Below, piece after piece: positions 37,325 to 43,751 of a stretch of DNA of 64,000 bases; position 1 is the first letter of the stretch, and each line of letters opens with the position of its first letter. Source of the stretch: Bacteroidota bacterium (GTDB taxonomy: Bacteria; Bacteroidota; Bacteroidia; Sphingobacteriales; Sphingobacteriaceae); NCBI GenBank assembly GCA_013288685.1, contig JABDBM010000001.1:89513-153512 (forward strand), given 5' to 3'. Position numbers and translations under genes: made by a program. The notes beneath the pieces were generated by a model. That model was not told the origin of the DNA, did not search any database, and saw only the letters and a program-made list of their open reading frames with translations.

Positions 37325-38104
37325 TTATTTTAAGCTTTGTATATAATAAACCACCGGCATTGCCGCAAAACCAAGCGGAATGATTACCGCAAACAACCAT
37401 GTGCCAATTGCCGAAACTATTGGCGTGTACTTACGGTGCACCCATCCCAGCGTACGGAACGCACTTTGAAAGCCATGCAATAAGTGGAATGAAACAGCAA
37501 ACATGGCAATCACGTAAAATATCACGTAGATTAAGTTGCTGAAACTGCTTGCCACCCGTGCATGCAAATCCTTTACCCGTACAATTTCAACATTGTTTTC
37601 TACCGATACGGACTTTTCAAAGCCTGGGGAGGCCTGATAAATGCCAGATTTAGTTTCACCTGTTGCCAAATCGGTTTTGTACTCCTTAAAACCCAGCTTA
37701 TCGCTGAATTTATAGTTGAACCAAAAATCGCCCATGTGGATGACCAAAAACAAAAACAAGATAGACCCCAGCAGGCCCATGTTTTTTGACGACCAGGTTG
37801 CCGTTGACTTGTTTACTTCGGCATACCTAACCGGGCGGGCCTTTCGGTTTTTAATGGTTAAAATTAAAGCATAAAGCGCATGTACCAGTATCGACAGGTA
37901 CAGCAGGTAGGCAATAACTTCAATCGGCGGGAAATGCGTAAGGAAATTGGCGTACACATTAAACCCGAAACCATCATCATTACTGAACAATAAAAGGTTG
38001 CCGCCAAGGTGCACAATTAAAAAAGTACACAGAAACAAGCCCGTTAAAGCCATGATCAGCTTTTTGCCCAACGATGAGTTAAAGGTTTGTTTAAATTCGC
38101 TCAT
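37325..38104 (-). CDS. sdhC: Succinate dehydrogenase cytochrome b subunit
   Basis: 259 aa, five membrane helices, diheme b type. The words FNSSLGKKLIMALTGLFL, CTFLIVHLGGNLLLF and VSFHLLHGFQSAFRTLGW contain the candidate heme His residues. It anchors SdhAB in the inner membrane and reacts with menaquinone. It is first in the operon, preceded by a good promoter candidate. Confidence 0.95.
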   Translation of the reverse strand: MSEFKQTFNSSLGKKLIMALTGLFLCTFLIVHLGGNLLLFSNDDGFGFNVYANFLTHFPPIEVIAYLLYLSILVHALYALILTIKNRKARPVRYAEVNKSTATWSSKNMGLLGSILFLFLVIHMGDFWFNYKFSDKLGFKEYKTDLATGETKSGIYQASPGFEKSVSVENNVEIVRVKDLHARVASSFSNLIYVIFYVIAMFAVSFHLLHGFQSAFRTLGWVHRKYTPIVSAIGTWLFAVIIPLGFAAMPVVYYIQSLK

Positions 38105-38125
38105 TAGAAATCAGATTTATTGGGG

Positions 38126-38158
38126 CAAAAGTATTTAATATATGCCAAAAGATACAAA
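38126..38158 (-). promoter_or_regulatory. Candidate promoter of sdhCAB
   Basis: On the minus strand a perfect TAnnTTTG -7 element (TACTTTTG, 38126-38133) and a TTTG -33 element (38155-38158) lie 21 nt apart. The 5' leader to the sdhC ATG would be about 15-20 nt. Confidence 0.55.
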
Positions 38159-38286
38159 TGGATTTAGCTTATTGAATAGCATTTAGCTATTTAGAAACAA
38201 TCTAAAAAGGTGGTGCGCCCGGGGGCGCATTTTTTAATGATTAATTTGCTTTATTTGTATCCAGTTAAATCAAGATTAAACCCGCA

Positions 38287-39201
38287 ATGCGCCAAATTAA
38301 ACCACCTAAGCCCGGAAAGTACATTGACCTTTTAGTTGACTTTGCGTTCAAGAAGATATTTGGCAGTGACCCCAATAAAGATTTACTGATAGCGTTTTTA
38401 AATGCCATTTTTATAGGGCGAAAAGTGATAGTTGATTTGATTTATAATAAAAATGAGCATCCCGGCGAATCGGGGTATGAAGGCGGCGTTATATTCGATT
38501 TACTTTGCACTGGTGATAATGGTGAAAGGTTTTTGATAGAAGTTCAACGTGGCACACAAGGGCGGTTTAAGGAAAGGGCCTTGTTTTATGCCGCGAGGTT
38601 AATAAGCGATCAGGCTCCAAAAGGTGACCGTGCCGGGTGGGCCTATGATATCGACGAGGTTTACCTCATTGCGTTGTTAGAGGATTTTATACTGGAGGGT
38701 AGTAAGGCTGATGAATATATGCACGATATTTGCCTTTGCAACAGGAAAACCGGTGAAATATTTTACGATAAATTAGGGTTTACATACATCGAATTACGTA
38801 ATTTTGTTAAGATTGAAGAAGAACTGGAAAGCGATTTGGATAAATGGCTTTACGTGCTGAAAAACATGAGCCGTTTTGAAAAGATACCCGTTTATCTGCG
38901 AAAGCCAATATTTGAAAAACTATTTAACATTGCCGAATACAGCAATTTAACCAAGGAGGAAAAAAAGATGTACGATAGTAATTTAAAATACAAATGGGAC
39001 AATGAGAACGTGCGGGCGTATGAGAAAGAATTGGCTGCTAAAGAAAAGGAAATAGCAGTGAAGGAAGCAGTTGAGCAACAACACGCGAAAGAAGTTGAGA
39101 ACATGAGAAATGTTGCCAGGGAGCTAAAAAAAGAGGGGCTAGGCGCTGAATTCATCGCGAAAACCACAAAGCTTCCTATTGAGGAAATAGAAAAGCTATA
39201 A
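38287..39201 (+). CDS. Rpn family nuclease (PD-(D/E)XK), putative abortive-type defence protein
   Basis: 304 aa. Residues 1-205 are the PD-(D/E)XK_2 nuclease: DFAFKKIFGS, GEDGG-like GGVIFDLLC for the catalytic Asp, and LIEVQRG for the ExQ pair. From about 210 on the protein is charged and coiled-coil (AYEKELAAKEKEIAVKEAV), ending EFIAKTTKLPIEEIEKL. Rpn proteins were first seen as recombination-promoting nucleases and are now reported as phage-defence nucleases restrained by a short product made from an internal start. Here an in-frame ATG at 38968 (Met228) follows AAGGAGG at 38953-38959 by 8 nt, a good candidate for such a start. A truncated second copy of the C-terminal part follows. Confidence 0.9.
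   Translation: MRQIKPPKPGKYIDLLVDFAFKKIFGSDPNKDLLIAFLNAIFIGRKVIVDLIYNKNEHPGESGYEGGVIFDLLCTGDNGERFLIEVQRGTQGRFKERALFYAARLISDQAPKGDRAGWAYDIDEVYLIALLEDFILEGSKADEYMHDICLCNRKTGEIFYDKLGFTYIELRNFVKIEEELESDLDKWLYVLKNMSRFEKIPVYLRKPIFEKLFNIAEYSNLTKEEKKMYDSNLKYKWDNENVRAYEKELAAKEKEIAVKEAVEQQHAKEVENMRNVARELKKEGLGAEFIAKTTKLPIEEIEKL
38953..38970 (+). promoter_or_regulatory. Candidate internal ribosome binding site and start within the Rpn gene
   Basis: AAGGAGG (38953-38959), 8 nt, then ATG (38968-38970) in frame with the nuclease; the product would be 77 aa. The caution is that the purine run also encodes Lys-Glu-Glu-Lys-Lys, and Bacteroidota ribosomes rely little on Shine-Dalgarno pairing. Confidence 0.4.
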
Positions 39202-39203
39202 TT

Positions 39204-39511
39204 TCAATTCAAAAATCCTTAACAGTTGCAGAATACACTAATTTAACCATGGAGGAAAGCAAAATGTACGATAGCAATATGAAATACAAGTGGGACAATG
39301 CGAATGTGAAGGCGTATGAAAGGGTGATAGCTATTAAGGAGAAGGAGGAAGCAGTTAAGGCAGCAGTAAAAAACGTGCAGGAACAAGTGAACATCCGATG
39401 GATAGAAAAAATGAAGAACATGGCAATCGAATTGAAGAAAGAGAAAAAATACCTGCTGCTAAAATTTCAAAATACACCGAACTTTCGATCGAAGAAATAG
39501 AAAAGCTATAA
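39204..39511 (+). pseudogene. Detached, frameshifted copy of the Rpn C-terminal region
   Basis: Reading from 39204 gives SLTVAEYTNLTMEESKMYDS, which mirrors the intact gene's NIAEYSNLTKEEKKMYDS. The similarity continues through KYKWDNANVKAYE. Near the A6 run at 39444-39449 the frame shifts; in the new frame the sequence ends IPAAKISKYTELSIEEIEKL and a stop at 39509-39511, matching the intact ending. The nuclease half is missing. Without the shift the open frame from ATG 39249 is 83 aa ending at 39500; GGAGG (39251-39255) also precedes ATG 39264 by 8 nt. It may be decay of a tandem duplicate or a small antitoxin-like gene. Confidence 0.75.
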
Positions 39512-39535
39512 TTATACTTCAGGTCCTTATCATCA

Positions 39536-40675
39536 ATGAAATACCTTTCAATTCCACTATTCGCCATCCTGCTAAGCGGCTGCATTAAAAAAGCCGATAT
39601 TGAATTTACCGGCGAAGCGCCCGGCGTTAAAAGCGGCGTTTTTATCGTCAAAACCGTTAGCGACAGCACGGTTTACGGCGAGAATATTAAAGACGGTAAA
39701 TTTGCCGTTTCGAAAAGGCCGCTCAAATATCCCGGTTACTACACTATAAACGTTACGGACGATGCTAATAACGATAATCACTCTCCTTTTGAGGTTTATT
39801 TGGAAGGCGGAAAGTATAAAATCGAGACTGAGGAGGGTAAATTGTATAAATATCCTAAAATAACCTCGAGCTCAAAAATACAGGAACAGCTTTCGGCCTT
39901 TTATACCATAGTTGATAAAGTAAGTTCGGGGACCGCGCAGGTGGTAAAACAAATAAACCAGGAAATAAAAGATAAGGAAAAAAGCTCGTCGCCACAGGAA
40001 TATACGCGGATGCTGAATAAACTTACCGATGCGCAAAATAACATGCTTACCAATAACGTGGTAGCATTTAAGCAGTTTATTGCGGCCTATCCAAACAGTG
40101 AAATCAGCGCGCATTTAATGGGCAAACTCAACTATGATGATGACCCTGCTACGTATTATGCCATTTATAAAACACTTACACCGGCAGCCCGGAACTCGGA
40201 CGAAGGTAAAGAACTTGGCGAGCGGCTGGGTCATTTGGTTAAGCTGGTGGTTGGTGCAAAAGCTCCGGCCATTGTTGGCAACACGCCGGATGGAAAGCCG
40301 TTTGACCAAAAAAGTATTAACAGTAAGGTAATTGTAGTCGATTTTTGGAAGGTAGGTAATGATTTTAGCAAACAAAATCATCTGCAATTTGCAGATATTT
40401 TGAACAGGATTAAGGATCCGAAAAAGCTGGCTATAGTGAGCGTTTCGCTTGGTTCCAGGAAAGATTGGTGGACCTATGCCATAACCCAGGATAATTTGAC
40501 CTGGACACAAGTTACCGATTTAAAGGGTGATGATTCGCCAAACGCCGCTAATTGGAATATTACCCAAATCCCCACTTATTATCTTTTAGATAGTAACTGG
40601 AATATTGTTGAACGCAATATTGACATAGGCCGGATTGAGTTTGAAGTGAATGATTATTTGAAAAAACACAGGTAA
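39536..40675 (+). CDS. Thioredoxin-fold lipoprotein lacking catalytic cysteines
   Basis: 379 aa. Lipobox LLSGC at residues 12-16. Residues 20-110 look like the DUF4369 domain (GVFIVKTVSDSTVYGENIKD), followed by a helical part (about 115-240) and a TlpA/AhpC-type domain (VGAKAPAIVGNTPDGKPF, then VIVVDFWKVGNDFSKQNH). In this family the last word normally reads FWASWCGPC; here both cysteines are gone, and cis-Pro is kept in ITQIPTYYLLD. Disulfide chemistry is therefore unlikely and a structural or binding role more likely. Confidence 0.82.
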   Translation: MKYLSIPLFAILLSGCIKKADIEFTGEAPGVKSGVFIVKTVSDSTVYGENIKDGKFAVSKRPLKYPGYYTINVTDDANNDNHSPFEVYLEGGKYKIETEEGKLYKYPKITSSSKIQEQLSAFYTIVDKVSSGTAQVVKQINQEIKDKEKSSSPQEYTRMLNKLTDAQNNMLTNNVVAFKQFIAAYPNSEISAHLMGKLNYDDDPATYYAIYKTLTPAARNSDEGKELGERLGHLVKLVVGAKAPAIVGNTPDGKPFDQKSINSKVIVVDFWKVGNDFSKQNHLQFADILNRIKDPKKLAIVSVSLGSRKDWWTYAITQDNLTWTQVTDLKGDDSPNAANWNITQIPTYYLLDSNWNIVERNIDIGRIEFEVNDYLKKHR

Positions 40676-41541: not shown

Positions 41542-42651
41542 ATGAAACAACATTTACAAAAAATTGACTTTTTAAGAGGCATTGCAATATTGATGGTGTT
41601 TGTATTTCATAGTGAGAGTGCCTTATATCCTGATTTTTTGGTATTAACTTATAAGCAGAATGGAATTATAAATGCACCAGGCGTCAAAAGTTTGATTTTG
41701 AACTTGTCGCCCCCCGCGTTTGGGTGGACTGGTGTCACTTTGTTTTTTATTATTAGCGGCTTTTTAATTCATTTAGGCTATTTAAGAAATCAGGATAGCT
41801 TTAGCATCCGCACTTTTTATAGCAAACGGTTTTGGAGAATATTCCCTGCATACTGGTTGGCATTGTTTTTCTTTTGTTTTTGCACCGGTGGATTTTGGTT
41901 GTATTTTTTTTATCGCACAGGGTTTGAGAATTTTGTACTTCACGTATTTGCTTTGCATAACTTACTGCCTGCCACGTTTTACACAATTAATCCTTCTTAT
42001 TGGAGCATAGCCGTCGAAGTCCAGCTGTATTTAATTTATCCTGTTTTATTATATGTGCGAAAAAGAATAGGTATCGGCAAAACTTTTATATTGATTCTTT
42101 TGCTTTCGTTGACTACCTTAATGTTAGAAATTATCTTCGATAATAAAAATGTATTTGGCTATCGGTATTCGGTTATTGAATTTTGGTTCGAATGGGCAGC
42201 AGGCGCTTATATGGCTGAAGCGTATTTTAATGATAAGCGTATATTAAAAAATGCAGGCCTTTTGATTAGTTTGCTGTTGCTGTTGTTGCTGATACCCGGT
42301 AAATATTTTGTGTATACAAATTACTTTTTAATATATATAGCCACCCTGTCGTGGGTTATATTTATTGATTGGCTACTGGGCAATAAAAAAATTAAAATGG
42401 AAAGCCGTTTTTCGAAATTAATTATCAATATTGGCTTATGCAGTTACAGCATCTATTTAATACATCAGCCGTTTTTATTTGATATGGTTAATTTTTTCAA
42501 TATCATTTCCAACAAACATTTAACCCGGATACTGAATATTGTTCCGGCTTTTGCCGTCATTTTTTTAATATCATGGTCTTTATATCAATACGTCGAGCTT
42601 CCTTCTGTAGCATTTGGAAATAAACTCAGAAAACGAAAGGAAAATCAGTGA
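41542..42651 (+). CDS. Acyltransferase family 3 (OafA/YrhL-like) membrane protein, copy 1
   Basis: 369 aa, about ten membrane helices. N-terminal KIDFLRGIAILMVFVFHSES contains the catalytic His region; FFIISGFLIHLGY and YSKRFWRIFPAYWL follow, then YWSIAVEVQLYL. The family O-acylates surface polysaccharides or lipids. The next gene is a close paralogue in the same operon, starting at a GTG that overlaps this stop codon. Confidence 0.9.
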   Translation: MKQHLQKIDFLRGIAILMVFVFHSESALYPDFLVLTYKQNGIINAPGVKSLILNLSPPAFGWTGVTLFFIISGFLIHLGYLRNQDSFSIRTFYSKRFWRIFPAYWLALFFFCFCTGGFWLYFFYRTGFENFVLHVFALHNLLPATFYTINPSYWSIAVEVQLYLIYPVLLYVRKRIGIGKTFILILLLSLTTLMLEIIFDNKNVFGYRYSVIEFWFEWAAGAYMAEAYFNDKRILKNAGLLISLLLLLLLIPGKYFVYTNYFLIYIATLSWVIFIDWLLGNKKIKMESRFSKLIINIGLCSYSIYLIHQPFLFDMVNFFNIISNKHLTRILNIVPAFAVIFLISWSLYQYVELPSVAFGNKLRKRKENQ

Positions 42652-43751
42652 AACAACACTTACTAAAGATCGACTTTTTACGGGGAATTGCTATACTGCT
42701 GGTATTCGTGTACCATTGCCAGGAAGTAATGTTTCCGGGCTACCTGGGTAGTTATAATGCCAATGGTATCATCAATACGTCCGGTACAAAAAGCATTGTC
42801 CTTAATTTTTCGCCAACCGCATTCGGATGGGCGGGCGTGGTACTGTTTTTTGTAATAAGCGGTTTTTTAATTCATTTGGGATATTTAAAAAATCAGGAAA
42901 ATTTTGATGTCCGTATGTTTTACAGCAAACGGTTTTGGCGCATCTTTCCGCCGTATTGGCTAAGCTTAGTTTTTATTGGTTTTTCAACCGGCAGCCTGTG
43001 GTATTATCTTTTTTCGAAGCAGGGATTTACCGACTTTTTCTTACACCTTGTCACGCTGCATAACTTTACCGACCGTACTTTCTTTTCTATCAATAAATCA
43101 TACTGGAGCCTGGCAGTGGAAGTTCAGCTGTATTTAATTTATCCATTTTTGTTGTTGATGAGGCGAAAAATAGGCATGAGGGCCTCCTTTGCCGCCACGC
43201 TCATTCTCTCCATCCTTTTGATACTGCTGGGGCTGTTTTTTAATAATTTCGGCACCGTGTTTACTTACGCCAAATCAGTTTTTGAACTTTGGTTTATATG
43301 GGCGGCCGGTGCGTATTTTGCTGAATTATATTTCAACGGAAAAACCATCCTGAAAAGAGGCGGCCTGCCCGCTTTTTTAGTTTGTGTATTACTGCTCACT
43401 ATTTCTAAATATTACATTTACTTTGATTATTTTGAATATCACATAGCTACCCTGGCTTTCATCCTGTTTATCGACTGGTTTTTACAGGCGGATAACGTAA
43501 CCATGAACAGTCATTTCTCAAAAAGTATGATTGCAGTGGGATTGTGCAGTTACAGTATTTATTTAATACATCAGCCTTATTTAAATAACCTGCTCCATTT
43601 TTTCGATATCATTTCACAAAAACATGCAGTAAGACTGCTCAATGTTATTCCGGCGTTCATAGTTGTTTTCTTAATTTCCTGGGCATTGTATCAGTTTGTT
43701 GAACTGCCATCGGTAGCGTTGGGGAAGAAGTTGCGGGATCGTTTGAAATAA
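42648..43751 (+). CDS. Acyltransferase family 3 (OafA/YrhL-like) membrane protein, copy 2
   Basis: 367 aa, colinear with copy 1 over its whole length (for example KIDFLRGIAILLVFVYHCQE, FVISGFLIHLGYLKN, YSKRFWRIFPPYWL). It starts at GTG 42648, overlapping the TGA of copy 1 (GTGA), so the two are translated together. It ends just before a terminator shared with degP. The pair arose by tandem duplication; each may modify a different position or acceptor. Confidence 0.9.
   Translation: MKQHLLKIDFLRGIAILLVFVYHCQEVMFPGYLGSYNANGIINTSGTKSIVLNFSPTAFGWAGVVLFFVISGFLIHLGYLKNQENFDVRMFYSKRFWRIFPPYWLSLVFIGFSTGSLWYYLFSKQGFTDFFLHLVTLHNFTDRTFFSINKSYWSLAVEVQLYLIYPFLLLMRRKIGMRASFAATLILSILLILLGLFFNNFGTVFTYAKSVFELWFIWAAGAYFAELYFNGKTILKRGGLPAFLVCVLLLTISKYYIYFDYFEYHIATLAFILFIDWFLQADNVTMNSHFSKSMIAVGLCSYSIYLIHQPYLNNLLHFFDIISQKHAVRLLNVIPAFIVVFLISWALYQFVELPSVALGKKLRDRLK

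Follow-up and report, generated by a model that had tools for sequence, protein, structure and literature searches.

A conserved, Shine–Dalgarno-led ATG inside a Mucilaginibacter rpn gene, predicted to start a 77-residue likely nuclease inhibitor, and a probably decaying tandem copy of its C-terminal region

Can a nuclease gene of the Bacteroidia, whose ribosomes reportedly fail at Shine–Dalgarno (SD) recognition (PMC9976891), carry the SD-led start of its own inhibitor within its coding region, and what is the second copy of its C-terminal region that lies directly behind it? Both questions are raised by an rpn gene of a Mucilaginibacter metagenome-assembled genome in a stretch of 64,000 nucleotides (contig JABDBM010000001.1, positions 89,513 to 153,512), which we call the window. 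The first-pass annotation had pointed to AAGGAGG 8 nt ahead of an in-frame ATG at 38968, giving a 77-residue C-terminal product, and both the coordinates and the reading frame check out. The explanation that we favor, and hold with good confidence, is that this ATG, codon 228, is SD-led, conserved in most of the family relatives sampled, and predicted to start the 77-residue product, that this product is a likely inhibitor of the nuclease, as expected by homology with E. coli Rpn, and that the tandem duplicate of the C-terminal region is probably decaying.

The gene belongs to the Rpn (PDDEXK_2) nuclease family, with two family models above their cut-offs on the 304-residue ORF (PF12784, E 2.8e-72 and 243.6 bits against a cut-off of 27.4; TIGR01784, 78.1 bits against 52.1). 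Across 50 aligned proteins, D71, E85, and Q87 are invariant and correspond to the conserved acidic motif of the PD-(D/E)XK type; we take them to be the catalytic residues. When the Rpn model was compared with PDB structures, nothing was returned at E 0.001 (the top match was a restriction endonuclease subunit, E 0.013), and a PDB sequence search gave three matches with a lowest E of 0.76. The gene and its copy are a local insert (38104–39536), since in 18 of the 19 relatives' loci compared the two flanking genes are near neighbors and rpn is absent. There, the sdhC-like gene (a name that we presume from the adjoining sdhA- and sdhB-like ORFs) is 161–754 nt from the redoxin-like gene, and the distance is at most 350 nt in 17 of the 19. 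None of these 19 loci held an rpn match, and in two of them a second redoxin-like match lies between the two genes. The same genome has another rpn gene (L002, G000:C20:27402-28265), 71% identical to that of the window and likewise with AAGGAGG ahead of ATG228. Farther along the window, at 41542–43751, two similar ORFs of 369 and 367 aa stand in tandem with a 4-nt overlap, the second starting with GTG; from their sequence, our guess is that they are membrane acyltransferase-like.

Table 1. Features of the rpn locus, in positions of the window.
Feature	Position	Strand	Basis
sdhC-like gene, left neighbor of the rpn insert	37325..38104	-	next to redoxin-like gene(s) in relatives without rpn
rpn, full-length RpnL-like, 304 aa, PD-(D/E)XK nuclease family	38287..39201	+	PF12784 and TIGR01784
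AAGGAGG, internal Shine–Dalgarno sequence, codons 223–225	38953..38959	+	conservation in the family; pairing with the 16S tail
Predicted internal ORF, RpnS-like, 77 aa from Met228	38968..39201	+	conservation of Met228; copies in relatives; model
Tandem duplicate of the sequence coding for the C-terminal region	39208..39521	+	own neighbor is the best match among the C-termini of 144 homologues, 75% nucleotide identity
Present ORF of the copy, 83 aa from ATG 39249, 78 aa from ATG 39264	39249..39500	+	ORF list
GGAGG of the copy, 8 nt ahead of ATG 39264	39251..39255	+	sequence; 16S-tail pairing -9.3 kcal/mol
A-rich stretch, approximate point where the family tail leaves the copy's frame	39441..39453	+	tail ..IPAAKISKYTELSIEEIEKL in the other frame
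Thioredoxin/redoxin-like gene, right neighbor of the rpn insert	39536..40675	+	Thioredoxin_8, 32.4 bits (cut-off 27)

In a single gene, such a motif would prove little, because 39 of 358 internal in-frame ATGs in the 54 window genes (ORFs of at least 120 aa, with the first ATG taken as the start) pair with the 16S tail at -7 kcal/mol or better, the strongest at -13.3. GGAGG at -15 to -5 precedes two of the 358, the rpn ATG at 38968 included. What makes a conserved internal SD striking is its setting: none of the 54 window genes has GGAGG at -18 to -4 of its start, and the ribosomes of this class are said to ignore SDs (PMC9976891). Any of GGAG, GAGG, or AGGA is found in that interval at 2 of the 54 starts. 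The anti-SD itself is intact, as the 16S tail of the window genome reads GGAATACCTCCTTTCT; two 16S-tail patterns had no match in five genomes each, and an Rfam model located the 16S genes in three of three. According to McNutt et al. (2023, PMC9976891), the anti-SD is concealed by bS21, bS18, and bS6, strong SDs benefit from ribosomes that lack bS21, and adding a strong SD in wild-type F. johnsoniae made reporter output somewhat lower. The same report describes rpsU (bS21), which resembles rpn in having a conserved SD, rare for the class, that pairs with the 16S tail. Pairing at rpsU is much tighter (-20.9 to -21.9 kcal/mol in five of five genomes, in our calculation rather than theirs), and the SD of rpn sits inside a coding region. 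Median pairing was -11.8 kcal/mol at 87 internal rpn starts versus -2.3 at the 54 window gene starts; with the window gene at -11.2, both rpn values miss the threshold of the rpsU-type strong-SD class (below -13). Bacteroidetes are reported to do without SDs and to favor an A at -3 (PMC6847099). A Kozak-like A as the main signal at the rpn internal start was unsupported by the counts at that position (36 A, 35 G, and 3 C; n = 74).

The evidence that carries the internal start is comparative. Relatives were present, among the matches listed, in 27 of the 149 genus genomes and in 143 of the 399 that made up the family sample; the loci taken from them were hand-picked from the best listed places (at most five candidates scored for nearly all family genomes) and form a non-random sample. 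The family set comprises 144 ORFs with matches to the nuclease model as well as the C-terminal one (60 in the genus, 84 outside it) and excludes L001 and L003, which duplicate the window; it contains a few truncated ORFs and fragments of broken genes (e.g., L065, L146, L054, L062). The first-pass annotation had named conservation of the Met228 codon in close homologues as one of its checks, and the residue is present in 126 of the 144. Among these Met228 genes, Glu224 is encoded by GAG in 120 of 122 cases and Lys223 by AAG in 92 of 97; elsewhere in the same genes, each of the two codons has a mean fraction of 0.33. The pair Lys-Glu is written AAGGAG in 88 of 95 cases at the site and, in the rest of the 144 genes, in 33 of 321. 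Ranked by codon bias among 175 columns, E224 comes first and K223 third, and the two rank second and third for fewest synonymous changes among 92 two-fold columns. On a tree built from the nuclease domain alone, with the internal-start site left out, we counted five such changes in 86 genes at E224 and five in 75 at K223, against a two-fold-column median of 0.244 per gene. GGAGG is retained even where residue 223 is a different one (CCG-GAG-GAA in 15 of 126, AGG-GAG-GAA in 6 of 126), and where that residue is Pro, Arg, or Met its codon mostly ends in G (CCGGAGGAA 15, AGGGAGGAA 6, and ATGGAGGAA 2, with CCAGAGGAA 2 and ATGCAGGAA 1 as contrary cases, each out of 126). We can consequently rule out GGAGG as a side effect of encoding Lys-Glu-Glu, since the codons used are rare ones and the G is mostly kept when residue 223 is Pro, Arg, or Met.

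A conserved GGAGG could also serve some other nucleic-acid purpose, such as ribosome pausing at an SD-like sequence within the gene or a DNA site for duplicating or swapping tails, with Met228 merely a conserved residue. We consider this unlikely. It would fit with the anti-SD being reportedly hidden in Bacteroidia ribosomes (PMC9976891), and with 19 of 34 adjacent copies in which homology restarts at or just ahead of the ATG, behind GGAGG, which puts the GGAGG/ATG site close to a recombination border. Against it, GGAGG tracks an ATG lying 5 or 8 nt downstream. In a nonredundant set of 92 genes below 85% nucleotide identity, GGAGG was found in 63 of 74 genes with ATG228, in 12 of 13 with ATG227 only, and in none of the five with neither; that is, in 75 of 87 genes with an ATG at either codon, and missing from the other 12. 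This association rests on few events, because the ATG state switches only three times on the nuclease-domain tree, and its Fisher values ignore phylogeny. Outside the family, among 72 ORFs that include cyanobacteria and other phyla and in which the 228 equivalent is placed by alignment only, 67 lack the ATG, and of these 65 also lack GGAGG and two have it. Glu224 in the ORFs without the ATG is GAA in 20 and GAG in 7; of the five with the ATG, one has GGAGG, so that both features occur together in 1 of 72. (One comparison outside the family left out L177–L198, which are the same places as genus loci, and the 72-ORF comparison left out nine own-family loci.) Outside the family, the 228 position gives no support to the idea of an ancient internal start shared by all Rpn. 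One rpn gene from another family of the class (L290) has AAGGAGG with an ATG at the 227 equivalent. Also at odds with a purpose other than initiation, GGAGG is kept in nine of nine orphan C-terminal ORFs that have no nuclease-domain match in their locus and are clear of the ends of contigs and loci (L073, L158, and L159, at contig ends, and L152, at a locus edge, are omitted from this count). In addition, Thr222 leans toward ACA (38 of 60 against an expected 0.29, in the 92 nonredundant genes), extending the match with the 16S tail to AAAGGAGG. The intragenic start proposed in the first-pass annotation thus has strong comparative support, both from the nucleotide conservation of GGAGG and ATG and from relatives' free copies that start there (19 of 34), and a predicted internal start with a ribosome-binding site ahead of the Rpn C-terminal domain is strongly supported as conserved sequence.

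What this start would be for can be approached through the RpnL/RpnS systems of E. coli (RpnA–E and RpnP2) described by Zhong et al. (2023, PMC10327210). Shared with them are a PD-(D/E)XK nuclease domain at the N-terminus; an internal start with a ribosome-binding site, here read from sequence; a C-terminal domain that varies by four residues; a variable stretch about 20 residues past the internal Met; and a predicted long first helix followed by two short ones, as in the topology reported for RpnAS. In our family alignment the variable stretch begins at that same distance, and C-terminal lengths move in four-residue steps, with 51 of 60 genus ORFs in one class modulo 4; the 77 residues of the window gene fall outside this common class. 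In the Rpn model (mean pLDDT 90.8), the helices span 223–282, 287–294, and 298–303, so a three-helix short form with a long first helix is matched within the full-length prediction, by topology rather than by superposition on RpnAS. The window gene differs from the E. coli systems in belonging to the PF12784 branch, in Sphingobacteriaceae, and in having an internal SD conserved in a class that reportedly does not use SDs (PMC9976891). By homology to E. coli Rpn, the short form would be translated from Met228, would dimerize through its long first helix, and would inhibit DNA cleavage by the full-length protein; the role of the system may be phage defense. By the same homology, full-length Rpn is a likely DNA-cutting toxin and the short form its likely inhibitor.

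The first-pass annotation had also described a second C-terminal copy right behind rpn. Two blocks match between gene and copy, 38912–39071 with 39208–39367 (76%) and 39160–39211 with 39470–39521 (77%), which confirms the copy; together they form a head-to-tail tandem duplicate that is nearly free of spacer. The GGAGG–ATG spacing given for it was likewise correct, and the copy has an extra, earlier in-frame ATG (39249) at the position of the parent's Lys223. The last 20 or so residues of its ORF are off-frame, and the family tail (..SIEEIEKL) is found in another frame that ends at 39511. The window copy is consequently not an intact free-standing RpnS of the YpaA/RpnES type. A Pfam search of it for DUF4351 (PF14261) gave no match; the only entry up to E 1 was Rep3_N, at 0.026 and below its cut-off.

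Is this copy simply a functionless pseudogene? We lean toward that answer, given its frameshifted tail and the broken tails of 6 of the 34 adjacent copies in the family, of which it is one. On the other side, it retains GGAGG, the spacing, and the ATG, and its first 22 codons differ from those of its neighbor with a dN of 0.15 and 7.5 differences at 9.7 synonymous sites. The tail itself, moreover, can be read whole in a different frame, which makes the frameshift either recent or an assembly error. Our reading is that the copy would have arisen from its own neighbor and been retained long enough for synonymous differences to accumulate, and that the frame of its tail may have been lost recently, if the frameshift is not an error of the assembly. 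The first-pass annotation had offered a decayed relic or a new small protein; the former is probably right, and the case for an intact new small protein is the weaker one.

Whether copies of this kind are conserved had been left to an alignment of related Rpn loci, and there they recur: 34 C-terminal ORFs follow either an rpn gene or a copy, spread over 30 of the 144 loci (23 of 60 in the genus and 7 of 84 outside it), not counting L072 (decayed) and L011 (degenerate). Most of them (28 of 34) extend to the conserved tail. At four loci (L048, L050, L019, L134), a single rpn gene is followed by two consecutive C-terminal copies. Duplication events were fewer than copies, as L010/L012, L079/L130, and L067/L068 each look like one copy seen in two genomes. 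The copies come in two forms. In 19 of the 34, an ATG at the 228 equivalent lies 2–47 nt past the preceding stop (2–5 nt in eight of them); none of the 19 has GGAGG, and one (L153) keeps an SD-like stretch. Another 12, the window's included, also retain a stretch of sequence ahead of the ATG, and 5 of these 12 have GGAGG. Two copies at L134 and one at L138 lay outside the start anchor of our script and were left out of the length, similarity, and dN/dS tables. The kind is already known, since YpaA/RpnES is present in E. coli, as is a downstream RpnCS (PMC10327210). As there, a second RpnS region forms a separate downstream gene of apparently local origin. The Sphingobacteriaceae copies differ from what that source describes for YpaA/RpnES in being frequent, in their two forms, and in a length mostly unlike the neighbor's; that of the window differs further in its frameshift and in having no DUF4351 match.

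The first-pass annotation proposed that the copy may yield a free-standing antitoxin-like protein. For the kind, this holds up: most copies reach the tail, and the intact ones look to be under purifying selection (23 pairs with their neighbors, pooled: dN 0.11, dS 0.72, dN/dS 0.16, omitting L007 and L049, which have the other tail type; control pairs of genes gave a median dN/dS of 0.21, n = 173). For the window copy, it holds up less well, as that copy is frameshifted. In E. coli RpnC, the repeat numbers of the short and long forms must match (PMC10327210), yet the length of the copy equals that of its neighbor in just 2 of 25 cases, about what chance would give (0.105), which makes restraint of neighbors by copies doubtful and weakens the reading of the copies as simple antitoxin back-ups. 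A serious competitor, to which we give somewhat less than even chances, is that the downstream copies are reserve or orphan tails, serving as cassettes for swapping C-termini or as immunity against other Rpn. Beyond the poor length match, it accords with the low dN/dS of the intact copies, with the own neighbor being the top match for 15 of the 31 copies compared, and with L007 and L049, where the downstream copy has a tail type unlike that of the full gene, which suggests tail exchange. Counting against it, none of the loci compared showed a tail exchange under way, and the repeat-match rule comes from RpnC only and may not apply here (PMC10327210). Given the length mismatch, we give a role of the copies as spare inhibitors of the neighboring protein no more weight than one as reserve tails or as immunity to other Rpn.

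From E. coli, both RpnS made within the gene and further copies of it downstream have already been described (PMC10327210). What appears to be new is a conserved SD-led internal start, likely that of the antitoxin, in an SD-poor lineage; no report of such an rpn start in Bacteroidota was found in the literature searched, most subscription journals being outside it. New as well is that the C-terminal copies are rarely matched in length to the neighboring gene. A far more speculative thought, to which we give very little credence, is that in Sphingobacteriaceae the antitoxin start is tied to a strong SD that bS21-free ribosomes would read well and ordinary ones poorly, so that the antitoxin would report the state of bS21. 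If that were true, a phage that loads its own bS21 or disturbs that of the host would shift the level of antitoxin and turn the nuclease on. Leaving that thought aside, the SD-led start at Met228 offers codon-level comparative evidence for an intragenic start, likely the antitoxin's, where ribosomes are thought not to use SDs. Internal rpn starts are thereby a further place, besides rpsU and rpsR (PMC9976891), in which to ask what role SDs have in Bacteroidia, and the frequent, mismatched C-terminal copies are natural pairs that make the specificity of RpnS testable.
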